Shown: positions 1-29,111 of the stretch, piece by piece
How the letters are laid out: each line of letters opens with the position of its first letter
How positions within the stretch are numbered: the stretch's first letter is position 1
Source of the DNA: an uncultured Oscillospiraceae bacterium
GTDB taxonomy: Bacteria > Bacillota > Clostridia > Oscillospirales > Ruminococcaceae
Assembly: GCA_934481385.1 (NCBI GenBank)
Contig: CAKSPD010000015.1
Span: 1-29,111, forward strand
DNA length: 29,111 bases
Direction: 5' to 3'
Program-made: the position numbers and the translations under genes
Notes under the pieces: generated by a model
Databases searched by the model: none
What the model was told of the DNA's origin: nothing
Seen by the model: the letters and a program-made list of their open reading frames with translations, nothing else

Positions 1-96
1 AGAATTAACGGCATAGCAAAAACAAATGTCGTTAATATGTACCGATACGTTAGTCGGAAATTTAAGCCTTTGGAGTGTTATACCAAACGAAAGTAG
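1..96 (+). CDS. C-terminal end of an unidentified protein (partial)
   Basis: The first reading frame is open from the window edge to a TAG at 94-96. It gives 31 residues with a markedly basic tail (several Lys and Arg in the last dozen residues). The family cannot be recognised from so short a piece. The frame contains CGA and CGG codons, which are rare in the neighbouring genes, so chance coding is possible. The 111 bases that follow hold only tiny frames, such as 128-187 and 144-215, and no convincing RNA gene. Confidence 0.35.
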   Translation, partial: RINGIAKTNVVNMYRYVSRKFKPLECYTKRK

Positions 97-207
97 CTGA
101 GGCAAAATCGGACACGTTGAAAAAGGAATGGAACATAAAAGTTATGATATTTATAGCATTTTACTTGGTTGTTATAGCTTTTTATAAGTTTTCAGTAACG
201 GTAAAAT

Positions 208-16124: not shown

Positions 16125-17672
16125 TCATTTTTCAATACTCACTGTCACACCTGATTTAAACTTGAATTCTAAGAAATCATCGTGAATAATAATTTGTGAG
16201 AGAAGATTTTTTACAAGTCTTTCATCAAATTTCGTGACAGCAGTCGGCTGGGATTTGATGAATCTTTGTAGTTCCTGTATTCTTTTCTTGTGTTCAGCTT
16301 TTGTGACACTGTCCATATTGCTTTGTTCCTGAAGTTCACGAATGCGAAGAATTTCTGTGGCAATATCATCATAATTTTCTCTGCGTTCAGTTCTGTCAAG
16401 GAGTTCTTGCTGTAAGACTTTCATTTTTTCTGCAAGTTTTTCATCAGTGCTGTTATGCTTGATTGCAACCTCAAGATTTGCAGTAAGTCTGTTAATATAA
16501 TCATTGCTGTTTGCAAGCATTTCATTTAGGGCATCAAGAAATGCCTCTTGTAAAACATCTTCTTTTACTGTTCTTGCTCTGCACTTGTCCTTGTTTTTCA
16601 AACGTGTAAGACATCTCCAGACAATTGATTTTTTGCCACGGTTGTTCCAATGTATTCTGCGATACTGACCTCCGCATTCTGCACAAAAAACAATCTGCGA
16701 AAACGCGTGGTTGGCACTAAATCCTTTACGTTTGCCTTCAATATCTCGTTCTGATGCTCGTCTTGCTATTTCATCCTGAACCTGTAAAAACAGTTCTTTG
16801 GGAATTATTGCTTCATGATGGTCTTCTATGTAATACTGCGGAACAATGCCATTATTCTTGACACGTTTTTTATTCAGGAAATCCACCGTATAGGTTTTCT
16901 GCAAAAGTGCATCACCCATATATTTTTCATTTTCAAGGATTTTTCTGATTGTACTATCGTGCCATCTTGGGTTTCCTCTTGCTGTTAAAATGCCGTCACG
17001 TTCCAATCCTTTAGCAATTTTCTGACAACTGCTGCCTTGCAGGTATTCAAGGAAAATTCTCTTTACAACCTCAGCTTCTTTCGGATTTACTACAAGGTTT
17101 CCGTCCTCATCCTTATCATAGCCAAGAAAATATTTAGAATTGAGTAATACTTTGCCGTGCTGATATCTGTACTGCAATCCCAGCTTTACATTTTTGGAAA
17201 TGGATTCTGATTCTTGCTGTGCTAATGATGCCATAATGGTAATAAGAACTTCACCTTTTGCGTCCATCGTGTTTATGTTTTCCTTCTCGAAGAAAACGGG
17301 GATATTAATATCTTTCAGCATTCGGATATAGTTTAAGCAATCTACTGTGTTTCTGGCAAATCGGCTGATTGACTTTGTGAAAATCATATCAATTATACCT
17401 TTCTTACAGTCATCAATCATTCTGTTGAAATCATCACGCTTTTTTGTATTTGTTGCACTGATGCCTTCATCAGCGTAAACATCAACAAGAATCCATTCAG
17501 GATTTGCTGAAATGAATTCACGGTAATGGCTGACCTGAGTTTCATAACTTCCAGCCTGTTCTTCATTGTCAGTCGATACACGGCAGTATGCGGCTACTCT
17601 TAGCTTTTTAACTTCTTCTTTGGTGGCTTTATTGCCTATTTGCTGTTTTGCAGGAATTTTTATAATATTCAT
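16125..17672 (-). CDS. Large serine recombinase (integrase), distal copy
   Basis: The 515-residue protein has an N-terminal resolvase domain with catalytic Ser33 in YCRVSTD and arginines in SISRFARN (101-108). A Recombinase domain (about 180-300) follows, then a zinc ribbon with Cys330, Cys333, Cys354 and Cys364, and a coiled-coil C-terminal part. Large serine recombinases cut and religate att sites to insert or excise elements. GAGGTAATACG precedes the ATG, and the start overlaps the stop of the small recombinase-domain gene by four bases. Sequence is clearly diverged from the other recombinase at 18043-19587, so they are paralogues rather than a recent duplication. Which one is the active integrase cannot be told. 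Confidence 0.93.
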   Translation of the reverse strand: MNIIKIPAKQQIGNKATKEEVKKLRVAAYCRVSTDNEEQAGSYETQVSHYREFISANPEWILVDVYADEGISATNTKKRDDFNRMIDDCKKGIIDMIFTKSISRFARNTVDCLNYIRMLKDINIPVFFEKENINTMDAKGEVLITIMASLAQQESESISKNVKLGLQYRYQHGKVLLNSKYFLGYDKDEDGNLVVNPKEAEVVKRIFLEYLQGSSCQKIAKGLERDGILTARGNPRWHDSTIRKILENEKYMGDALLQKTYTVDFLNKKRVKNNGIVPQYYIEDHHEAIIPKELFLQVQDEIARRASERDIEGKRKGFSANHAFSQIVFCAECGGQYRRIHWNNRGKKSIVWRCLTRLKNKDKCRARTVKEDVLQEAFLDALNEMLANSNDYINRLTANLEVAIKHNSTDEKLAEKMKVLQQELLDRTERRENYDDIATEILRIRELQEQSNMDSVTKAEHKKRIQELQRFIKSQPTAVTKFDERLVKNLLSQIIIHDDFLEFKFKSGVTVSIEK

Positions 17673-18061
17673 CGTATTACCTCTATTAAACTGTAAATAT
17701 ATTCAGCTTGTTCTTTGGGAGTGTCATGGATTTCTGTTGCTTCAAAAAAAGCAAATTCGGTGTGTATAGGAGGCGGTTTTAGACGGCTGGATCTTTTATG
17801 TTCAGAAGAACGCTTTATCAATTCTGCATTTGCTCTTGAAAATGTGTTTTTGTTTACAATTGCAGGGTGTGAATCGTCTCCGACATAACGGGCATTTTGA
17901 AGTATTCGCTTTACGGTACTATGGCAGAATGGCTGTCCTGCATTTTTAGCAGCATTTGTCATACTCATTCCTGAAATATAGGCATTAAAAATACCGACTA
18001 TAACTGACGCTTCGTGTTCGTCAATTCTGATTTCTCCGTTTTCTACTTTGTACCCGTACAT
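17669..18061 (-). CDS. Standalone recombinase-domain protein lacking the catalytic domain
   Basis: The 130-residue product matches only the DNA-binding Recombinase domain (PF07508-like) of large serine recombinases. GYKVENGEIRIDEHEASVI resembles the start of that domain, and STVKRILQNARYVGD with NKNTF its end. The catalytic resolvase domain, zinc ribbon and coiled coil are missing. The start at 18061 has AAAGGAGGAAAT, so this is an independently translated gene, not a fragment of either neighbour. It overlaps the upstream recombinase by 19 bases and the downstream one by four. I infer an accessory or specificity factor for the flanking recombinases, or a regulator. No catalytic activity is expected. 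Confidence 0.75.
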   Translation of the reverse strand: MYGYKVENGEIRIDEHEASVIVGIFNAYISGMSMTNAAKNAGQPFCHSTVKRILQNARYVGDDSHPAIVNKNTFSRANAELIKRSSEHKRSSRLKPPPIHTEFAFFEATEIHDTPKEQAEYIYSLIEVIR

Positions 18062-19587
18062 ATTTCCTCCTTTAATGTCAATCCGCATTTCAGTTTAAAA
18101 CCTATGAAGGTTCTGGAATAAACAATGATGCAATCAAGATATTCAAGAAAAGATTCATCAAAAGCAGAGAAAGTGTTTGATGATTCTATAAAATGAATCA
18201 GCTTTTCTGTTTCTTTTATCATGTGGTCATTCTGTGAATTATCAAGTTGTCTTAATTCCATGCGATATTCCTCGTTTTGTTTTTCAATTCGTGACACTTC
18301 CTGATTGAACAGCGTACTGTCAATAAGCCCTTTCACTCTCAGCTTGCGAATATCATTTTTTCTGTCTGAATTTTTCTGAATATTTTCTTTCAGATTCAGA
18401 ATACGCTGTAAATTGTCATCAGTTTTCATCAATTTAATGGATTCAAGATATGGCTTCAAAACTCGTTTATAACCAAAAATCAGTTTATTCATCATTGTTG
18501 TTAAAGCAGCTTTAATTGCTTCTTCCTTAATGAATTTTATAGAGCATTGCTCTTTATGAAAAAGGTGCGTTTTACAAGCCCATGCTACACCTGAACTTTG
18601 GGTTTGCCGTTTGAATTTACTGCCACATTCACCACAAATAATCAGACCTGAAAATGGATACCTCTTTAAATATTTTGAATCGCTTTTTATGATTTTTCTT
18701 TCATCGGCATGAATCTGTATCAATTCCTGAACTTTCTCAAATTCACTTTTGCTGATGATAGCCTCATGGTGTTCTTCAGCATAGTATCTGTCAGATTCCC
18801 CATTATTCTTATGTCTTTTAAAATTGCTGTCAGTGTAGGTTTTGTTAAATATGGCTGCACCGTAATATTTTTCGTTTGTAAGTATGCTCTTTACAGTTGA
18901 ACCTGTCCATTGACCGCCTCTGCGTGTTGGAACTCCTTGTTCCTGAAGGAGCTTTGCAATTTTGTATGTGCCTACTCCGTTTAATGCGTATCTGAAAATA
19001 TCTTTGATTACATCTACTTCATCGGAATTGATTATCATATTTCCATTTTTATCATGCATATATCCGTATGGAAGATAACTGAATTTATATATTCCGTTTT
19101 CGATGTTTTTTTGATTGCTCCATTTAACATTTTTGGATATAGATTCAGATTCACCTTGTGCCATACTGCTGAGAATTGCCAGAATCAATTCACTTTCCAT
19201 ACTGCCTGTGTCCAGATTTTCCTTTTCAAAATAGATAGGAATGTTATACGAAAGCAGTTCTCTCACAAGTGAAAGACAGTCGGTTGTATTTCGAGAAAAA
19301 CGGCTGATGGATTTTGTGAGAATATAGTCAATTCTGCCGATTCGGCATTCATAAAGCAAAGCCTGCAAACCATCTCTTGCGTCAGCTTTTGTTCCGCTGA
19401 TTCCAAAATCATAGAAAACACCTGCAAATTCCCAATTACTATGCATTTTAATCCAAGATTCATAATGCTTTTTCTGAGTGTCAAGGCTCTCTTTCTGGTC
19501 ATCAGAATCCGTTGAAACACGACAGTATGCAGCAACACGAAGTTTTTTTATTTCTTGTGGTTGTGCGTCAATTTTTCGTATTTTCAA
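18043..19587 (-). CDS. Large serine recombinase (integrase), proximal copy
   Basis: The 514-residue protein has catalytic Ser25 in YCRVSTDS, a SISRFSRNTTD arginine segment and a Recombinase domain with GYMHDKNGNMIINSDEVDVI. A zinc ribbon follows (CGECG and a later pair, CK near WACK and EQC), then a long charged coiled coil. I place the start at TTG 19587, five or so bases after AGGTGA. The upstream in-frame GTG at 19596 is part of that ribosome site. It is the first recombinase of an operon of overlapping genes. Together with the two downstream genes it forms a triplet seen in several integrative elements that use serine integrases. Confidence 0.92.
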   Translation of the reverse strand: MKIRKIDAQPQEIKKLRVAAYCRVSTDSDDQKESLDTQKKHYESWIKMHSNWEFAGVFYDFGISGTKADARDGLQALLYECRIGRIDYILTKSISRFSRNTTDCLSLVRELLSYNIPIYFEKENLDTGSMESELILAILSSMAQGESESISKNVKWSNQKNIENGIYKFSYLPYGYMHDKNGNMIINSDEVDVIKDIFRYALNGVGTYKIAKLLQEQGVPTRRGGQWTGSTVKSILTNEKYYGAAIFNKTYTDSNFKRHKNNGESDRYYAEEHHEAIISKSEFEKVQELIQIHADERKIIKSDSKYLKRYPFSGLIICGECGSKFKRQTQSSGVAWACKTHLFHKEQCSIKFIKEEAIKAALTTMMNKLIFGYKRVLKPYLESIKLMKTDDNLQRILNLKENIQKNSDRKNDIRKLRVKGLIDSTLFNQEVSRIEKQNEEYRMELRQLDNSQNDHMIKETEKLIHFIESSNTFSAFDESFLEYLDCIIVYSRTFIGFKLKCGLTLKEEICTGTK

Positions 19588-19615
19588 GTTTATCACCTCA
19601 TTTCAGTATGACATA

Positions 19616-21268: not shown

Positions 21269-22573
21269 TCACTCCTTCATAAATTTAATAGACTTCACCA
21301 TCGGATGTGAATTATCCGATGTGCCTTTGAAAGCAAGGTAGTATTCTCCATCCGATATGTTTTCAAGTGACTGTATCACAGAAATGAAAGTATCGGAGTA
21401 GAGCCATTTAAATGATAATTTCAAAGCATTTTCGGCTTTGATTTCCTCGTAAATATACTGAGCAAGTTCAGAACCCATTTTATCTGTATTCGGAATAAGA
21501 TAAAATTCAGCGTCCTGCGATGCACCAACCATATAGCTTAAAAGCAGCTTCATTTTTGAAGTAATTGCAACAGGTGTCAAAAATATCACAAACACCGTTC
21601 CTGCCCAACTGAAATCGTTCTGATTGAAATACAGAGCATATTCATTTTCAGAACAGCAGAAATGCGGATAGCTCTCTGCAAATCCTGCAAGAGAACGATA
21701 ACCGTCATTATAATAAGTGTAGATGCTGTCACCGTATTTCTGCAAGGCATCAGAACCGCTTTCAAATACAGAGATATAGCTGATACCGGATATTTGCCTG
21801 ATTTGCTCTTGCAACTCTGCAATATCAGCTTTTGTTGCATAGTCTGACATATCGGGAGTGATTCCGTCCCTGCCGTCAGCACCTTTTAAGCTTTGCAGCC
21901 ATTCATTTTCTGTACCTGAAAATCCATGTTCTACGGCAATAATATAGGCGGATTTTCCATCTGTGCCGTTAATTCCATCACGCCCCAGAAGTCCGTCCGC
22001 ACCATCCTTTCCATCTTTACCCGGTAAACCATCAGCACCGTTTCTACCGTCACATCCGTCTTTACCGTTTACTCCATCCTTGCCATTAACACCTTTCAGG
22101 CTTTCAAGCCATTCAGCCTCTGTGCCAACAAATCCATGTTCTACAGCAATTTCAAATGCTGATTTGCCGTCAGTTCCTTTAGATGCAGACAGTATCTTCT
22201 GCAAAAGCTGCTGATATAAATCAGGAGTAGGCGGAACATTACTGTTTTCACCATCAAATCCTGACGGTCTGATGTGTAAAGTTTTTACAACCGTTGTTGC
22301 CCTGACTGTTTCAGTTGCTTCTGCATCATAGCCAAACAAGGACATCTTTACTGTGCCGGAAGTCAATTCAGCAGGCAGAAAACAACTCGTATTTTCTGTT
22401 CCGAGAACCCTGTTATAGGTTATTTCGTCCTGTGTGAACTGCACAACCTTATGCAATGGTTTCCAGCTGTTATCGAACACAAAATGTATCTTCACAAAAG
22501 CAATCTGGTCTGCTGCAATGATTTCATGTTCCAGCGTTTCGATGTTCTGACCTTTTACAAGAAATTTTATCAT
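21269..22573 (-). CDS. Collagen-like tail or baseplate protein (BppU-like N-terminus)
   Basis: The 434-residue protein starts at ATG 22573, behind GAGGTGAAAGC; it overlaps the upstream gene by four bases (ATGA). The N-terminal 100 residues (FVKIHFVFDNSWK, then FLPAELTSGTVKMSLFGYD) look like the beta-sandwich used to attach baseplate proteins such as BppU. Residues 161-205 are 15 Gly-X-Y triplets, a collagen-like triple helix. They are flanked by two copies of a tail-fibre module (GTDGKSA...AVEHGF...GTE.EWL.SLKG) at about 133-161 and 203-231. A coiled coil (250-265) and a unique C-terminal domain, probably host binding, follow. It is likely a trimeric fibre for adsorption. Confidence 0.8.
   Translation of the reverse strand: MIKFLVKGQNIETLEHEIIAADQIAFVKIHFVFDNSWKPLHKVVQFTQDEITYNRVLGTENTSCFLPAELTSGTVKMSLFGYDAEATETVRATTVVKTLHIRPSGFDGENSNVPPTPDLYQQLLQKILSASKGTDGKSAFEIAVEHGFVGTEAEWLESLKGVNGKDGVNGKDGCDGRNGADGLPGKDGKDGADGLLGRDGINGTDGKSAYIIAVEHGFSGTENEWLQSLKGADGRDGITPDMSDYATKADIAELQEQIRQISGISYISVFESGSDALQKYGDSIYTYYNDGYRSLAGFAESYPHFCCSENEYALYFNQNDFSWAGTVFVIFLTPVAITSKMKLLLSYMVGASQDAEFYLIPNTDKMGSELAQYIYEEIKAENALKLSFKWLYSDTFISVIQSLENISDGEYYLAFKGTSDNSHPMVKSIKFMKE
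21959..22093 (-). repeat. Collagen-like Gly-X-Y tract
   Basis: These 135 bases encode 15 uninterrupted Gly-X-Y triplets, with GKD, GAD and GRD frequent. Copies of a roughly 28-residue fibre module flank the tract, 210 bases apart (about 22091-22174 and 21881-21964). Such tracts change length by slippage or recombination. Confidence 0.85.
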
Positions 22574-23940
22574 GCTTTCACCTCTTTCCATGTTTTCGTG
22601 CTTGTGACATATTCCATATATCCGTCAAGACACTGAATTTTTGCAAGCGGAGATTCGATATCAACTGCACGGCTGTCCCAGTTTGTATTTTTCTTCACAG
22701 CGTTCCAGTCTGCAAGAGAACCCTCATAGGTAATTTGATTCAGGGATTCACAGTAATTGAAACAGCCACCCACAATTTCCTTGACATTTCTGGTAAGGGT
22801 AAGATTTTTCAGTTTTGTGCATCGTACAAACATTCTGTCACTGATGACTTTGCCGCCGTATCGCACCGTTTCAAGATACTGACACTCGCTGAACGCCATT
22901 GCACCTACGGTTGCCACAGAGGGCGGAACGGTTACGGACTTGATTGCAGTTCCTGCAAATGCATTCACGCCAAGTTCAGTAACACGTTCCGGAATCTTCA
23001 GTTCTGTTAAACCATTAAGCCTCTGATGATAAATGTAACTGTCAATATGCGGCAGAAATGCAGCCTTTTTGATTGCTGTAAGTGTAGTCGGAAGTGATAC
23101 TGTTTTTAAGTTATCACAATACTGAAAAAGTCGTTCTCCAATGCCTGTTACACCCTCTGAAACAATGACCGACTTGATATTTGCATTGTTTTGCAATGGT
23201 GACGGATTGCTGTCAGTAGAATAATCGAATGTTGCTCCGGTGCCTTTGAGGAGCAGTCTGCCGTCCGAATAAAGCACAAAATCCACGCTTTGACCGCATT
23301 TTCCGATAGAAACCACATCGCCTGTCATCTCATCAATTTTCAGCGTTAACTCGTTTATCTTTGTCGTTAACTGACTAACTGTTATATTGTAATCTTTTAT
23401 CTGCGTCTGAATTTCAGAAAGCTGAGAGAGCATATCTGTGACCTTGCATTTGCCTAAAATACAGCGGACATATCCGCAGAAATTATTGTTCTCTCTGTAG
23501 TCTGTAATGCTGAGTTCTGATGTGCCTGCATCAAGTCTGATAATGCAAAGGGTAAGATATTTCTTGTAATCTGTGTTCTGAAATCTCGGTATTGCAGGAT
23601 TGGAGGCAGGTGTTCCTGCGAGAATTTCAAAGCTGACATTGCGGACGTTTTCAGAAGTGTTGCAACAGATACCGATCGTCATATATCTTGGCAGAGATTC
23701 GTCCACATAGCGGGATAAATCATAGGTGTATGCCGTATCCGAAATGAAATAATGTCCCTGAATCCAAGCCTTTCCGCTGCCGATCGTCAGTTTCAACTTG
23801 TTTGCAGACAGTTTGAAACACTGTCCGAAGTTGTCCTGAATTCCATCACAGATAATACTGCCGAGATAGTCGTTAAAGTTCTCCGCAGTATAGGTTCTGT
23901 CAAGATTTTTAGAATTGAAAAATCCGAATGAAAATGCCAT
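22570..23940 (-). CDS. Baseplate/tail protein with BspA-type leucine-rich repeats
   Basis: The 456-residue protein has three parts. The first 160 residues begin MAFSFGFFNS and contain IGSGKAWIQGHYF, a pattern seen at the start of phage baseplate or fibre proteins. A coiled coil lies at about 168-207 (LSQLSEIQTQIKDYN, then TTKINELTLKIDEM). The C-terminal half (about 250-430) holds BspA-like LRR_5 repeats with motifs such as IPERVTELGVNAFAG and VPPSVATVGAMAFSECQ. BspA-type repeats are used by host-associated bacteria for surface binding, so the phage protein is likely an adhesion or receptor-binding component. AAGGAGG lies before the ATG. Confidence 0.75.
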   Translation of the reverse strand: MAFSFGFFNSKNLDRTYTAENFNDYLGSIICDGIQDNFGQCFKLSANKLKLTIGSGKAWIQGHYFISDTAYTYDLSRYVDESLPRYMTIGICCNTSENVRNVSFEILAGTPASNPAIPRFQNTDYKKYLTLCIIRLDAGTSELSITDYRENNNFCGYVRCILGKCKVTDMLSQLSEIQTQIKDYNITVSQLTTKINELTLKIDEMTGDVVSIGKCGQSVDFVLYSDGRLLLKGTGATFDYSTDSNPSPLQNNANIKSVIVSEGVTGIGERLFQYCDNLKTVSLPTTLTAIKKAAFLPHIDSYIYHQRLNGLTELKIPERVTELGVNAFAGTAIKSVTVPPSVATVGAMAFSECQYLETVRYGGKVISDRMFVRCTKLKNLTLTRNVKEIVGGCFNYCESLNQITYEGSLADWNAVKKNTNWDSRAVDIESPLAKIQCLDGYMEYVTSTKTWKEVKA

Positions 23941-23941
23941 G

Positions 23942-25054
23942 TTAAGCCTCCTTAAATGTTGGTGTTAAATTTCTGCCGTTGCGATCGAAACTCTCAATCA
24001 TTCCGACAAGCTGTATTTTGTTCTGTCTGATTCCAAATCTGTGGTGTTCAACTGTAACAAAATCCCCAACAAAATAGTCCACACTGTATTGAAACTGTGT
24101 GGACTGTACAGCGATCTGTGATTCTGATTTTGTTTTTGTAGGAACAAGATTCTGCTTGCCTTTCTCTTTCAGAAGTTCCGAATATTCAGCGTCAGAGAGC
24201 GGTCTTGTTTCATTGTCAACCTGTTCTTCATCTGAAATGTCCTTTGCATCAACATACACTTCATAGCGGTCGAGAGAAGAAGGTTCTGAACCCTCAAAAT
24301 ATGTGGTTCTTTTGCGTTTTTCACCTTCGCCTTTGCCTAAGACATAGGCGTAATTTTTCTTGACTGAGGTATCTGTAAAATAGGTGAAGGACAGCAGATT
24401 ATTGTATCTGTCAGAGAAAATGATGTGCGGATTGATTTCCTGTAATATACTTCTGTCAGTACCCTGCGAAAGTTTAAAAACCATTTCATACTGCTCATTA
24501 TTGGTTTTACTCAGACGTATATTTGCAGTTCCGCCGATTTTTTCGCAGATGGTATACACCCATTCCATCAGATTGTCGTAGCTGACCTGCAACTTTGTTT
24601 TTACATTCCAGCAATTTCCAGATGAACAGCCGACAATAAGTCCCGGAAGTTTTCTGATACCCGATGTACAAGCGTTATACTGTACCACATTCATTATAAT
24701 TTGAGAATATGAAACAAGTTTTGTGAAGTTGAATGTGGGATAGATGATTCTGCGTTCAAGTAAGCACATCAGAAATCTGCCTTTGATGATGAGATAGTCG
24801 CCATCTTCGGCATCGGTTTCAAGTTCCACAGATTCAATCAGTCCGAAATGTTCCTTGTCATCATCACGACCAACAATTCTGCCAGTCTGAAAAATCTCAA
24901 TATTTCGGGGAGATGCAGCAATATACACCTCAAAAGCACCACATTTATAGTATTCAATATCCCACAAAAGCGAAGAAAAGCTGTCGCAGACAGCCTCAAG
25001 TGAAATATTCAATTTATCATTCAAGACAGCCATATTGTAAATTTCAATCTGCAT
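23942..25054 (-). CDS. Siphovirus Gp37-like tail protein (ReqiPepy6 type)
   Basis: The 370-residue product resembles the Siphovirus ReqiPepy6 Gp37-like family (PF14594). It starts with a beta-rich tail-hub region (FEVYIAASPRNIEIFQTGRIV), and its C-terminal part resembles baseplate-hub folds (VQSTQFQYSVDYFVGDFVTVEH). Members replace the usual tail-associated lysin or hub in this position. The AGGAG site upstream supports the ATG, and three bases separate it from the distal tail gene. It likely caps the tail tube next to Dit and connects to the baseplate fibres encoded downstream. No peptidase motif was recognised, so a lytic function is not claimed. Confidence 0.8.
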   Translation of the reverse strand: MQIEIYNMAVLNDKLNISLEAVCDSFSSLLWDIEYYKCGAFEVYIAASPRNIEIFQTGRIVGRDDDKEHFGLIESVELETDAEDGDYLIIKGRFLMCLLERRIIYPTFNFTKLVSYSQIIMNVVQYNACTSGIRKLPGLIVGCSSGNCWNVKTKLQVSYDNLMEWVYTICEKIGGTANIRLSKTNNEQYEMVFKLSQGTDRSILQEINPHIIFSDRYNNLLSFTYFTDTSVKKNYAYVLGKGEGEKRKRTTYFEGSEPSSLDRYEVYVDAKDISDEEQVDNETRPLSDAEYSELLKEKGKQNLVPTKTKSESQIAVQSTQFQYSVDYFVGDFVTVEHHRFGIRQNKIQLVGMIESFDRNGRNLTPTFKEA

Positions 25055-25057
25055 TTC

Positions 25058-25909
25058 TCACACTCCTAAGTACGCATTTCGGTGTATCAGGCGGACTTTG
25101 ATGTTATTCAATCCATCTGACGCACGGACATAGAATTTATTTTCACCTGCTTTCAGATTCAGCCATGTAGAACCCGAAACAAGCCGATTGATGATATTTG
25201 TCACAACGCCCTCACGCTCCAGAAGAACGGTTTTATTGCCCGTTTTGGTGGTTATAGTAATCACATCGCCTTTTTGAATATCGCCTGAAATCTGCATATA
25301 TTCGTCTGTCAGAGCGTTGTAAATGGTCGGATTTTTCGCAGGTCCTCCGCTGATTTCAAGGGTGAATCCGACCTCATCACCGCTGTTATTGATCGTCATC
25401 ATATCCTGCGTATTGTACATACCAATCGGGAATGGCTCATCATTGTCAGGACAGACAAAATGAAATGCACCTCTGACACGAGAATATTCCGCAATCTGCG
25501 TTTCTGTAGAATACCAATAAATATCAGGACAGAGAATAGAGATCTGTCCGCTTGTCAGCTTTTCAAAATTCTCCACCTCACAGGTTTCCACAATACCCTC
25601 AGCATACACAGAGATATTTTTTGTGGTATAGTATATCTTGATGTAGCGTGACGGCTTGACCACCCTGTAGAGTTCATGTCTGCGGAGTTCCACACCAACC
25701 CCACGCATTTCAAAGGAAATGACCACATTTCGCTTTTCAATGAAAGCATTGTTGAGGTATGAACCGTTCATTCCTGCATAATTTGAAGTGCTGACCGTTC
25801 CGGTGGGTGGGTTCAGCCCCTTGATTTTGGAGAACATATATCGGTTTGCTGTTTTTGAAAGGTCGATCTGCTGACCTGTTTCGTTTTCGAGGATGAGTGT
25901 GTAGAACAA
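25058..25909 (-). CDS. Phage distal tail protein (Dit-like)
   Basis: The 283-residue protein matches the distal tail (Dit / Sipho_tail) pattern. Its N-terminal half has NRYMFSKIKGLNPPTG and SYLNNAFIEKRNVVISFEMRG, typical of the ring-forming domain. Its C-terminal half is a beta-sandwich (TINNSGDEVGFTLEISG, then WLNLKAGENKFYV). Dit forms the hexameric ring at the end of the tail tube on which the hub and receptor-binding proteins assemble. The start is TTG at 25909, five or so bases after AGGTGA; no ATG is available nearby. It should directly follow the tape measure gene, but an inserted plus-strand gene separates them by 706 bases. Confidence 0.85.
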   Translation of the reverse strand: MFYTLILENETGQQIDLSKTANRYMFSKIKGLNPPTGTVSTSNYAGMNGSYLNNAFIEKRNVVISFEMRGVGVELRRHELYRVVKPSRYIKIYYTTKNISVYAEGIVETCEVENFEKLTSGQISILCPDIYWYSTETQIAEYSRVRGAFHFVCPDNDEPFPIGMYNTQDMMTINNSGDEVGFTLEISGGPAKNPTIYNALTDEYMQISGDIQKGDVITITTKTGNKTVLLEREGVVTNIINRLVSGSTWLNLKAGENKFYVRASDGLNNIKVRLIHRNAYLGV

Positions 25910-25927
25910 AATTTCACCTGCCTTTCA

Positions 25928-25957
25928 TTGACTTTGTGTATATGGGTATGATATAAT
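25928..25957 (+). promoter_or_regulatory. Promoter of the plus-strand accessory gene
   Basis: TTGACT (25928-25933) and TATAAT (25952-25957) are separated by 18 bases, a good vegetative promoter. It drives the gene at 26033 against the direction of late phage transcription, which fits expression in the lysogen. Confidence 0.7.
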
Positions 25958-25976
25958 AATTATGGCAACACCGCAC

Positions 25977-25996
25977 AATTGCCAAAGCAATTTTTT
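25977..25996 (+). other. Small hairpin with T-run in the accessory gene leader
   Basis: AATTGC (25977-25982) and GCAATT (25987-25992) flank a CAAA loop, followed by TTTT. It would form a few bases into the transcript. The AU-rich stem of six is weak, so an attenuator role is only possible. Confidence 0.3.
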
Positions 25997-26032
25997 GAGT
26001 AATGTCATTGATCATGGAAAGGTGAAAAACAA

Positions 26033-26515
26033 ATGAATGTACAAACATATTTGATTAATTGTATTTCAAATAATACAGGCATCATTAAAGAACAATATGA
26101 TTTTGAATATGCGGGTATTTGTGGATATTCTGAATTAATCGGTTGGAAGATTATCTTTTTTAGAAGAAAAAAAACAAATTTGTTTCTCTCTGCAATATGC
26201 TTTTCTGATATTTACAGTAAAGAAGAAATTGAATTTTGCAATTATATATTTGAAAAATTAGATTTTAAAATAAAATTCGGATGTGATATAGAAGAAATAA
26301 TAGAATTATTTGGAAAAGAATCATATATTTCCCATATTTCCTATGATTATGATGATATTTATAGATATGTGTATTTACTTGATGAAAAAACATTTGCTTC
26401 TTTCGGCTTTTCTGATAACAAAAAATTAGTAGAAGTTGAAATGATATTTGATAAAGATATGGCTAATGATGTTTTTAAAAGTAGAAAGATAGTTTCAGAA
26501 GAATTTAAGCTTTAA
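26033..26515 (+). CDS. Unrecognised accessory protein inserted in the tail module (moron-like)
   Basis: The 160-residue protein is not recognised. It is acidic and rich in aromatic residues and Ile, with an alternating helix/strand look, and it has no signal peptide or membrane segment. GKESYISHISYDYDDIYRYVYLL near residues 95-115 is the most distinctive stretch and is very tyrosine-rich. The gene has AAAGGTGA before its ATG, its own promoter at 25928 and a strong terminator at 26591. It is more AT-rich than its neighbours and lies opposite to all late genes, between tape measure and Dit. These are moron signs: host-benefit, immunity or superinfection-exclusion roles are possible. A resemblance to small polymorphic-toxin immunity proteins is only an impression. 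Confidence 0.7.
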   Translation: MNVQTYLINCISNNTGIIKEQYDFEYAGICGYSELIGWKIIFFRRKKTNLFLSAICFSDIYSKEEIEFCNYIFEKLDFKIKFGCDIEEIIELFGKESYISHISYDYDDIYRYVYLLDEKTFASFGFSDNKKLVEVEMIFDKDMANDVFKSRKIVSEEFKL

Positions 26516-26731
26516 ATGGTGCTTTATATGACAGTATATGATATTGAAATTGTAGAACTGTTGGAAGACAAGTATGTTGCAGTTATAGGAAGGAGCGACC
26601 AAACATCGCTCCTTTTTACATCTCCACCGCATTCTTCGTCTGCCGATAGATTTCCAGCCGTGACAGTGATTTCGGGCTATTGTTGGTCTGATTTACTGTA
26701 CGGCTGTTGTCGTTATTGTAGTAATTGTTGA
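26516..26731 (+). pseudogene. Possible truncated second accessory frame
   Basis: An ATG directly after the stop of the 26033 gene opens a 71-codon frame. Its first 25 or so residues (containing YDIEIVELLEDKYVAV) look natural and acidic, like the start of a small DUF4926-like protein. The frame then runs through the terminator hairpin and into the antisense of the tape measure gene, ending in a Cys/Ser-rich tail of no apparent sense. No ribosome site is seen beyond coupling. It is best read as a gene cut off at its 3' end when the accessory segment was inserted or trimmed, but a real overlapping gene is not excluded. Confidence 0.3.
26591..26617 (+). terminator. Terminator of the accessory gene
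   Basis: AGGAGCGA (26591-26598) pairs perfectly with TCGCTCCT (26606-26613) and runs into five T. It stops plus-strand transcription right before it enters the tape measure gene. Read on the minus strand the hairpin lacks a T-run, so late phage transcription should pass it. Confidence 0.85.
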
Positions 26732-29111
26732 CAACGGAACTTTCAGAACTGCCATTCATAATCGCACCTGTCATTCCGTCAAGATTGTAGTTGAGATCAG
26801 AATTGAGCGTTACTCTCATTGTATCTGCAACACCCGAAACCGCCTTTGCTACGACCTTTTTGCTTTTGTTAATGCCGTCCGCCAAACCGTTCATGAAGTC
26901 AGGCATCCAGCTTTCAAAGTCTGTCAGCGGACCTACATCAGGAACGGAAAAGTGCAAATAACTGCGGATCGTATCAGCGATATTTGATACACTGTCAGCA
27001 AGACTGCCGATCATACTTCTCAAGCCATCAATGATGTTGGAAACAATATCTCGTCCCCAGTTCCAGGCATCAGATGCAAGACCTTTGACATAATTGACAG
27101 CATTATCAAAACCGCCCTTGATCGTGGTGTAAATACCGCTGATAATAGAACCAATTGAAGATTTCACGTTATTCCAGATGCTTGTTACAGTTGAATGAAT
27201 CGTATTCATCACCGATGAAATTGTGGAAGAAATGCTGTTCCATACGGAAGATACTGTGCTTCGGATAGCATTTACCACACTTGAAACAGCACTGCTGATT
27301 GCATTCCATACACCTGAAATGACAGAGCTTATGGTGTTCATTATGCTTGAAATGAAACTTGAAATTGCGTTCCAGACCGATGTAACAACGCTTGAAATAG
27401 TGCTTAATGTCGTCGAAATTGCTGTATAAATAGCATTCCATATTGTTTCAAAAAACATTTTAATCCCCTCAAGCAGAGGGGTAAGAAATGCAACAATCGC
27501 ATTCCATATGGTTTGTATCTTTTCCGAAATCCAATCCATCACATTGCTGATAATGATATGAATTGCCTGAAAAATGGTTTCAAACAGATATTTAAATGCC
27601 TCTAAAAGAGGCGAAATAAAGCTGTAAATCGCATTCCAGATGCTTGAAATCGTGTCGTAAATAGTGGTGCAGACAGTTGAAATAACCGTCCATATTGCAT
27701 TGAAAATGTTGGCAAAAAAGTCGTGAATACTGGTCAGAATTCCTGCGAAGAAGTCATATACAGAAGTAAAAATCGTAACCGCTGTGGTATAGATCGCAGT
27801 TGCTATCGTTGTAAAAAACGTGGAGATTGCATTCCAGATATTTGTGAAAAAGTCAGCAACAGCCTGAAAAGCGGAACAAATGCTGTCCCAGATTCCAACG
27901 AAAAAGTCCTTAATTGATGTCCACACTTCATTCCATGATGTTCCGAACCAACCGAGAAATACGTTTGCCACACCTCTCAGCGTGTTCAGAATATTGCTGA
28001 ACTGGTTAACTACAAAATCCCAGATACCTGTAAAAATGCCTTTGATACCGTTCCAGCACTGTTCCCAGTTTCCCGAAAATAAGCCGATAAATACATCAAG
28101 CACGCTCAGAATAGTATCCGTCACAAAGGTGAAAATATCCGAAATATGCTGAAATACACCCTCAAATACAGGGGCAAGCACACTGCACAAACCGTTCCAC
28201 AGAGATTTCAGCATATCGCCGAAACTCTGAAAGTTAAAGCCCAATGCATTCACTCTGTCAACGATTCCGAATGTCAGACGTTCAAAGGTAGACTTTATCT
28301 GTTCCCAGATGGAAAAAATGCTGTTTTTGAAGTCCTCATTGGTGTTCCACAAATGCACAAAGGCAGCAACCAGCGTTGCAATAATCGCAACGACAGCCAC
28401 CACAGGAGCAGAAATACCACCAATTGCAGCACCAAGCGTTGAAAATGCAGTCTTAGCACCTGCAATCATTGTCGGAATTTTTGAAATGAATGTCATCATG
28501 CTTCCGATAGAAGAAATCGTCTTACCCACAACAATCAAAAGCGGTCCCAAAGCCGCAGCCATCAATCCAATTTTGATAATGGTCTGTTTTGTTGCAGGGT
28601 CAAGGGCATTCAGCTTGTCCACAAATCCCTGTATTTTGGTGATGATGTCACGAATAACAGGCATCAGAATTTTTCCGAAAGAAATAGCCAGTTCCTCAAG
28701 CTGTGACTTCAGAATGGTAAGCTGTCCTGCGAGATTGTCCTGCATAGTTTCCGCCATTTGTAGAGAAGTACCATCACAGTTTGCAATGGCACCCGACAAT
28801 TTATCAATATCCGCAGGTGCGGCATTCATCAGAGCAAGAAATCCCGACATAGCATTTTTGCCCACAAGAGTTTCTGCGGCACTCGCTTTTTCGGATTCGG
28901 ACATCTGATCAAATGCAACCCTACAGTCTGCTAAAATATCGGATAAATTTCGCATTGAACCGTCTGAATTGGTGGTTGCGATTTCCATTTCTCCAAAGGA
29001 TTCAGAACAGAATTTGACTTCTCCCGAAAGTGCAGTCATAATGGAACGCATGGAAGTGCCGGACTGTGTAGACTTGATACCGGCGTTTGCCATTAAGCCA
29101 AGTGCTTCAGC
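26616..29111 (-). CDS. Phage tail tape measure protein (C-terminal 831 residues; 5' end outside window)
   Basis: The frame is open to the right edge. Residues just after it (EALGLMANAGIKSTQSGTS) are the hallmark of the TP901-type tape measure core, so the gene begins upstream. Tape measure proteins fix tail length and help pass DNA through the host membrane. Visible parts are the core end, two hydrophobic segments (near KIGLMAAALGPLLIVV and APVVAVVAIIATLVAAFV), then a long region of 22-residue repeats with conserved Ile/Val-Trp-Asn. The C-terminus (VPDVGPLTDFESWMPDF, NGLADGINKSKKVV) matches other siphovirus tape measures. The stop is at 26616, overlapping the accessory gene terminator by two bases. 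Confidence 0.93.
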   Translation of the reverse strand, partial: AEALGLMANAGIKSTQSGTSMRSIMTALSGEVKFCSESFGEMEIATTNSDGSMRNLSDILADCRVAFDQMSESEKASAAETLVGKNAMSGFLALMNAAPADIDKLSGAIANCDGTSLQMAETMQDNLAGQLTILKSQLEELAISFGKILMPVIRDIITKIQGFVDKLNALDPATKQTIIKIGLMAAALGPLLIVVGKTISSIGSMMTFISKIPTMIAGAKTAFSTLGAAIGGISAPVVAVVAIIATLVAAFVHLWNTNEDFKNSIFSIWEQIKSTFERLTFGIVDRVNALGFNFQSFGDMLKSLWNGLCSVLAPVFEGVFQHISDIFTFVTDTILSVLDVFIGLFSGNWEQCWNGIKGIFTGIWDFVVNQFSNILNTLRGVANVFLGWFGTSWNEVWTSIKDFFVGIWDSICSAFQAVADFFTNIWNAISTFFTTIATAIYTTAVTIFTSVYDFFAGILTSIHDFFANIFNAIWTVISTVCTTIYDTISSIWNAIYSFISPLLEAFKYLFETIFQAIHIIISNVMDWISEKIQTIWNAIVAFLTPLLEGIKMFFETIWNAIYTAISTTLSTISSVVTSVWNAISSFISSIMNTISSVISGVWNAISSAVSSVVNAIRSTVSSVWNSISSTISSVMNTIHSTVTSIWNNVKSSIGSIISGIYTTIKGGFDNAVNYVKGLASDAWNWGRDIVSNIIDGLRSMIGSLADSVSNIADTIRSYLHFSVPDVGPLTDFESWMPDFMNGLADGINKSKKVVAKAVSGVADTMRVTLNSDLNYNLDGMTGAIMNGSSESSVVNNYYNNDNSRTVNQTNNSPKSLSRLEIYRQTKNAVEM
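27114..27839 (-). repeat. Eleven 66-base tandem repeats in the tape measure gene
   Basis: Eleven consecutive 22-residue units, without insertions, start with IWN, VWN, IFN or similar and split into two 11-residue halves. Examples are VWNAISSFISSIMNTISSVI, VWNAISSAVSSVVNAI and VWNSISSTISSVMNTI, each opening one unit. The three most 3' VWN units are closest in sequence, which suggests recent duplication. Each unit fits a helical hendecad pair, so unit number would scale tail length. Confidence 0.9.

Follow-up and report, generated by a model that had tools for sequence, protein, structure and literature searches.

A likely moron cassette placed antisense between the tape-measure and distal tail genes of a Ruminococcaceae prophage

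Results

The stretch of DNA analysed here (hereafter the window) covers 29,111 nucleotides of contig CAKSPD010000015.1 from an uncultured Oscillospiraceae bacterium (GenBank assembly GCA_934481385.1), and includes a prophage with relatives among Ruminococcus phages of the human gut. Our subject is a small gene lodged among its tail genes, which the original prediction, made from the sequence alone, had singled out as an autonomous unit. The gap between the genes for the distal tail protein (dit, 25058–25909) and the tail tape-measure protein (TMP, 26616–29093), both on the minus strand, spans exactly 25910–26615. The dit gene starts with TTG, and its product matches Pfam SPP1_Dit (3.4e-11) and Sipho_tail (2.5e-8) as well as PHROG_33 Dit (1.3e-28). 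TMP was assigned by PHROG TMP (3.1e-137) and TIGR01760 (5.7e-29), and its listed open reading frame (ORF) starts near the window end. The sole cargo ORF in the gap (26033–26515, plus strand) encodes 160 residues and is antisense to both tail genes; it thus lies head-on to late transcription, as had been proposed. The proposed AT-richness was also borne out, with a GC content of 24% in 26001–26500 and of 41–43% in the flanking 500-base blocks. A short plus-strand frame (26516–26593, MTVYDIEIVELLEDKYVAVIGR...) follows the cargo gene directly and looks like the beginning of a further, truncated one.

Inspection of the gap by sequence scan and folding recovered every expression signal claimed for the gene. 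On the plus strand, 25928–25957 contains a predicted promoter of sigma-70 type (TTGACT-18-TATAAT), with a TG ahead of the −10 box. It matches the consensus at 11 of 12 positions besides the TG, and scores highest among 12 promoter-like sites in 25000–27500, a number not in excess of chance (shuffle mean 9.5). The −35 box begins at a distance of 19 nt from the start codon of dit, immediately past the dit Shine-Dalgarno sequence (AGGTGA, 25914–25919, minus strand), and the translation signals of dit are therefore intact despite the insert. Downstream of the promoter, a leader hairpin (TGGCAA...TTGCCA, 25963–25984, plus strand; −5.7 kcal/mol, z −1.2) is weak when taken alone, as 24 of 200 shuffled sequences fold equally well; by eye, such hairpins recur in other cassettes. 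The ribosome binding site AAAGGTGA (26018–26025, plus strand) stands 7 nt upstream of the ATG. The predicted intrinsic terminator, GGAGCGA-CCAAACA-TCGCTCC-TTTTT (26592–26617, plus strand), shares part of its T-run with the TMP stop codon. It was absent from the automatic scan and came from folding, where its hairpin (−14.7 kcal/mol, z −4.8) was equalled by none of 200 shuffles. The run of five T's is on the plus strand and no T-run exists on the minus strand, so by its sequence the terminator acts on the plus strand only.

We then compared the same locus in related phages. Two Ruminococcus phages from human faeces (PV036433 and PV036441) match the window flanks and hold a different, 150-aa gene in the slot. 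A Dit scan yielded 47 viral loci and a profile scan four more contigs; the gap was measured in 52 public contigs with both flanks, while one locus (L007) was without TMP. The slot was filled in 48 of the 52 contigs, with gaps of 371–2550 bp. In the other four (L012, L014, L043 and L097) dit and TMP are 12–14 bp apart, barely more than the dit Shine-Dalgarno sequence, and the insertion thus separates genes that adjoin in relatives. The two tail genes had been expected to adjoin normally, but in this lineage the empty state is the rare one. Counting near-identical cargo once, 38 gene contents including that of the window were distinguished, two of which (L017 and L039) are without an ORF of 90 aa. 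Cargo ORFs were antisense to the tail genes throughout, and GC content was below that of the own locus in all 47 occupied entries. The only first-gene homologues in different contents, among cargo of the first scan, were those of L023 and L048 (40%). The window gene is none of the 37 other contents, and is therefore not a conserved core tail gene, in agreement with the original prediction.

The promoter beside the dit ribosome site is kept in the same place across relatives while the cargo varies. Of 37 distinct flanks on the dit side, 27 match at 10 or more of the 12 consensus positions (mean 1.7 and maximum 4 in 50 shuffles), and 13 match at 11 or more (shuffle average 0.2). When the window is aligned with L001 and L004, identity ends right after TATAATA and returns at the terminator stem, and the genes in between are unrelated.

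A Pfam match at 0.01 was found for 24 of 36 scanned cargo ORFs, some of them below Pfam's own cut-off. The matches comprise TraX, HSDR_N_2, metallo-beta-lactamase fold, LacAB_rpiB, Shedu, Na/H exchanger, DnaJ, chromate transporter, PDDEXK_4, NUDIX, Fic, flavin reductase, HXXEE, HNH, VanZ, GIY-YIG, NMN transporter, Imm33, SnoaL and SMI1/KNR4, of which the Imm33- and SMI1/KNR4-like ones are just under the Pfam cut-off. PADLOC matched 7 of 10 cargo proteins picked as defence-like, and the slot in relatives includes Shedu, PD-T4-3, PDC-S26, PDC-S04 and restriction-type nucleases. Among 28 further proteins (27 from the slot, one from a pre-TMP site) PADLOC gave few matches; one of these, other than the proteins of L015, L016, L019 and L041, the second L018 gene and the first L021 gene, matches PDC-S07 (3.6e-13). 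In the last set of cargo proteins none of 10 matched. These scans covered the cargo except that of L017, L039, L125 and L128. Other slots hold transporters, metabolic enzymes and immunity-like proteins. The slot is therefore a general moron dock, with known or candidate defence making up a clear minority of the cargo.

We investigated the window protein through its relatives. These are few, with 7 proteins among 879 candidates; a profile search added only one, IMG/VR held no close relative, and a search of one genome per species of the Genome Taxonomy Database (GTDB) found a single locus with a homologue (L003). Relative to this 69%-identical homologue, the ratio of nonsynonymous to synonymous substitution rates (dN/dS) was 0.22 over 154 codons, indicating purifying selection, and 50 of the 100 differences fall at third codon positions. 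About 61 of 160 residues are invariant across six aligned sequences. One database protein (P0006), which joins a TetR N-terminus to the C-terminal ~46 residues of the window protein and is probably an assembly chimera, was excluded from the alignments. The scarcity of relatives and the truncated frame behind the cargo gene could be taken to mean that the gene is a decaying remnant or a chance ORF; given the low dN/dS, the third-position differences and the invariant residues, we consider this highly improbable.

The protein had been described as of unknown family, and a match to a known structural family was indeed not found by Pfam, PHROG or PADLOC (0 PADLOC families at E ≤ 10). A sequence search of solved structures returned nothing at E ≤ 10. 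Fold matches, all weak, include BLIP and the type VI secretion system (T6SS) immunity protein BtiO, and residues about 75–141 model weakly as a BLIP/BamE-like fold, of which a helix-helix-four-strand domain matching solved chains would be the mark. The name DUF7738 was dropped because the score (17.6 bits) is below the curated cut-off of 24.6; that family is present in 2 of 117 genomes, within proteins of more than 800 aa. A glycyl-tRNA synthetase match (0.11) was dismissed as chance.

These matches raise the question of what the product protects against. It may confer immunity to the toxin of a bacterial competitor, so that lysogenic conversion would serve bacterial warfare rather than resistance to phages. 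The BLIP and BtiO matches point that way, as do the SMI1/KNR4- and Imm33-like cargo of other slots and the setting of the L003 homologue, which is chromosomal, among three DUF5104 genes, with no recognised phage tail genes nearby. However, the fold and family matches are weak without exception, visual inspection of the 20 kb around L003 revealed no recognisable toxin gene, and genuine anti-phage systems occupy other slots. We regard toxin immunity as a plausible assignment, though somewhat short of probable. The product may instead belong to an undescribed family of factors for anti-phage defence or superinfection exclusion, in keeping with the defence systems and restriction-type nucleases in the slot of relatives and with Tab, the closest published architecture, which is a defence gene (PMC10884400). 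Against this, the window protein has no PADLOC match and, by Pfam, no nuclease, nucleoside triphosphatase (NTPase), HEPN or membrane signature, and its slot-mates are mixed. This role, too, is a real but tentative possibility.

Evidence for movement of cargo came from the L021 gap, which contains two cassettes; between them, 117 bp from the end of TMP are fused to 230 bp from the start of dit. The dit part shares 94% identity with L031 and 78% with the dit of L021 itself, and the second cassette is that of L031 (protein 98%). Therefore, a cassette arrived in L021 together with flanking tail DNA from another phage. Related cargo was also found at different sites: EamA-family cargo occupies the TMP/dit slot in L055 and L125 and a position upstream of TMP in L013 (52–53%), and HNH cargo occupies the slot in L033 and a position upstream of TMP in L001 (40%). 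The latter is a second antisense insert (L001:13867–14844, plus strand; also in L002), encoding an HNH_2 nuclease between TMP and the preceding gene.

A subset of slot cassettes (L001, L004, L010, L017, L030, L035, L041 and L055) shares an end element, consisting of CGCTAAATCGGAATTT or a variant in the leader, repeated in inverted form close to the stop codon. A matrix built from 12 slot elements was run on 39 non-redundant loci (524 kb), and found 13 matches elsewhere than in the slot, at a score that yielded 0–2 in five shuffles. Twelve of the 13 form six inverted pairs, each flanking one ORF at a junction other than TMP/dit; L013, L015, L017 and L023 have theirs upstream of TMP (L013 and L015 with the same cargo), L032 and L037 beside an ORF read by eye as lysin. 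An independent search of viral contigs with a strict pattern of promoter plus element found 10 stretches. A looser scan of viral contigs gave mostly chance matches, which served as the negative control for the inverted-copy test: all 11 strict-pattern cassettes with an ORF have an inverted copy near the stop matching at 12–15 of 18 positions, against 8–12 for 10 chance matches, with single-cassette control fractions of 0.005 to 0.07. The cassettes of L057 and L060 lie beside an antisense frame that is, by eye, a putative terminase gene. The same promoter and inverted element were seen around single ORFs at junctions other than TMP/dit in L013, L015, L017, L023, L032, L037, L055, L058, L059 and L060. 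In 394 bacterial genomes the strict pattern occurred once (L086), not in a cassette.

The window cassette does not clearly share these ends. The matrix found no match at both ends of its gap, and the best inverted match (12 of 18) was equalled in 15 of 40 shuffles; the element therefore bears on the cassette class and not on the window gene. Some results also weigh against a shared element as such. An unguided 18-mer test of 36 site-1 cassettes was weak, with 11 cassettes at 13 or more of 18 where shuffles average 11–12. For 16 hand-chosen cassettes (leaving out L008, L042/L051, L057 and L059), the ends pair within cassettes only slightly better than between them (15.0 versus 14.5 of 18, permutation p 0.028); for this reason we claim no RNA structure for the ends. 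No cassette matched Rfam at the gathering threshold.

Some like-ended cassettes upstream of TMP lie on the sense strand, which bears on whether the insert serves the late transcript itself. The strictly antisense placement in the slot, and a promoter that abuts the dit Shine-Dalgarno sequence, would suit an antisense regulator of tail-gene expression from whose protein the lysogen gains nothing. Four relatives, however, manage without any insert, the coding sequence is under purifying selection, and the cargo proteins are unrelated, so the RNA is not the conserved part. Together with the sense-strand cassettes, these observations make such a regulator improbable.

Discussion

We consider it likely that the gap holds a moron cassette: an AT-rich gene with predicted promoter and terminator, antisense in the TMP/dit slot, expressed in the lysogen, exchanged via conserved flanks, and encoding a product that protects the lysogen, most probably an inhibitor or immunity-type protein. 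This reading draws on the anatomy of the locus, the recurrence of slot and promoter, the turnover of cargo, the purifying selection and the two cassettes of L021. Since the gene has its own predicted promoter and terminator, is reversed, and sits in a variable slot with some defence matches, it is likely of use to the phage in its dormant state and to the host, not to the virion. The terminator is less regular than the promoter: its criterion was passed by only 9 of 47 occupied entries, and the exact window hairpin, used as a pattern, had 0 matches in viral contigs, L041 carrying a variant.

In the mechanism we propose, the cargo gene would be transcribed by host RNA polymerase in the silent prophage. 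Once the prophage is induced, late transcription from TMP to dit would run antisense through the cassette, as the terminator lacks a T-run on that strand, and would damp the cargo gene. Recombination within the conserved flanks is the likely route by which phages exchange cassettes. More tentatively, the product may be a small cytosolic inhibitor or immunity-type protein whose BLIP/BamE-like C-terminal domain counteracts some component of an infecting phage or else a toxin from a competitor; such a product would benefit the lysogen, not the virion.

A bolder proposal, which we think rather unlikely as a whole, is that Ruminococcaceae-type temperate phages possess a dedicated mobile cassette system, in the order promoter, leader hairpin, element, gene, inverted element and terminator. 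One cargo pool, including anti-phage systems, would circulate via the shared ends among fixed docks at TMP/dit, before TMP, beside the lysin gene and near the terminase gene, and the window would represent the TMP/dit dock with a new immunity-type protein and eroded ends. Integron gene cassettes, too, are exchangeable genes driven by a promoter and bordered by imperfect inverted sequences. In contrast to them, each cassette here has its own promoter, and the element is at both ends rather than forming one recombination site; no integrase tied to the cassettes turned up, although none was sought.

The window cassette resembles the morons described in PMC4378225: a single coding region with promoter (here a sequence match) and terminator (here predicted), of differing base composition, between genes that adjoin in relatives. 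That text calls moron acquisition mysterious and reports no sequences hinting at a common recombinase target. Here, by comparison, one junction is filled in nearly all relatives with changing and always reversed cargo, and a subset of cassettes has the inverted end element. Cargo turnover at one dock and the shared ends of some cassettes add to the interest of this case, and among open PMC full-text papers no prior description of the TMP/dit slot or the cassette ends was found.

The nearest published arrangement is Tab/anti-Tab of Pseudomonas phage JBD26 (PMC10884400), in which a prophage-expressed defence gene with its own promoter lies opposite the late operon between two late genes. Tab, however, lies between the terminase genes and has a sense-strand inhibitor gene, and no inhibitor gene was seen here. 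In the noncontiguous operon Tha/Ith of S. aureus prophages, an immunity gene in antisense arrangement is likewise lowered on induction (PMC11087260). It is chiefly the Ith protein that shuts Tha off, antisense suppression being mild, whereas for the window only antisense read-through is proposed, from sequence. At the P2 and P4 defence hotspots (PMC9122126), too, cargo that includes defence systems is interchangeable at one set position in the phage; they belong to other phages and another locus, whereas the slot described here lies within the tail operon, usually with a single gene.

A junction that is nearly always filled, changing cargo beside a recurrent promoter, a phage with two cassettes around a foreign TMP/dit piece, and ends that some cassettes share across junctions together make moron exchange testable. 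The slot also provides a position-defined set of about 40 genes, many without a family match, in which to look for anti-phage and immunity proteins of gut Ruminococcaceae phages.

Additional observations

Three further features of the window were recorded. The Rfam RNA RAGATH-18 is present at 67–128 (plus strand) in the bacterial part, scoring 75 bits where the gathering threshold is 44.9. A minor virion-type protein (22570–23940, minus strand), assigned to a PHROG of unknown function, has a BspA-like leucine-rich repeat C-terminus (LRR_5, 4.7e-30). Adjoining the lysis genes, at 16125–19596 on the minus strand, two full-length large serine recombinases flank a 139-aa recombinase-like frame (17669–18088).
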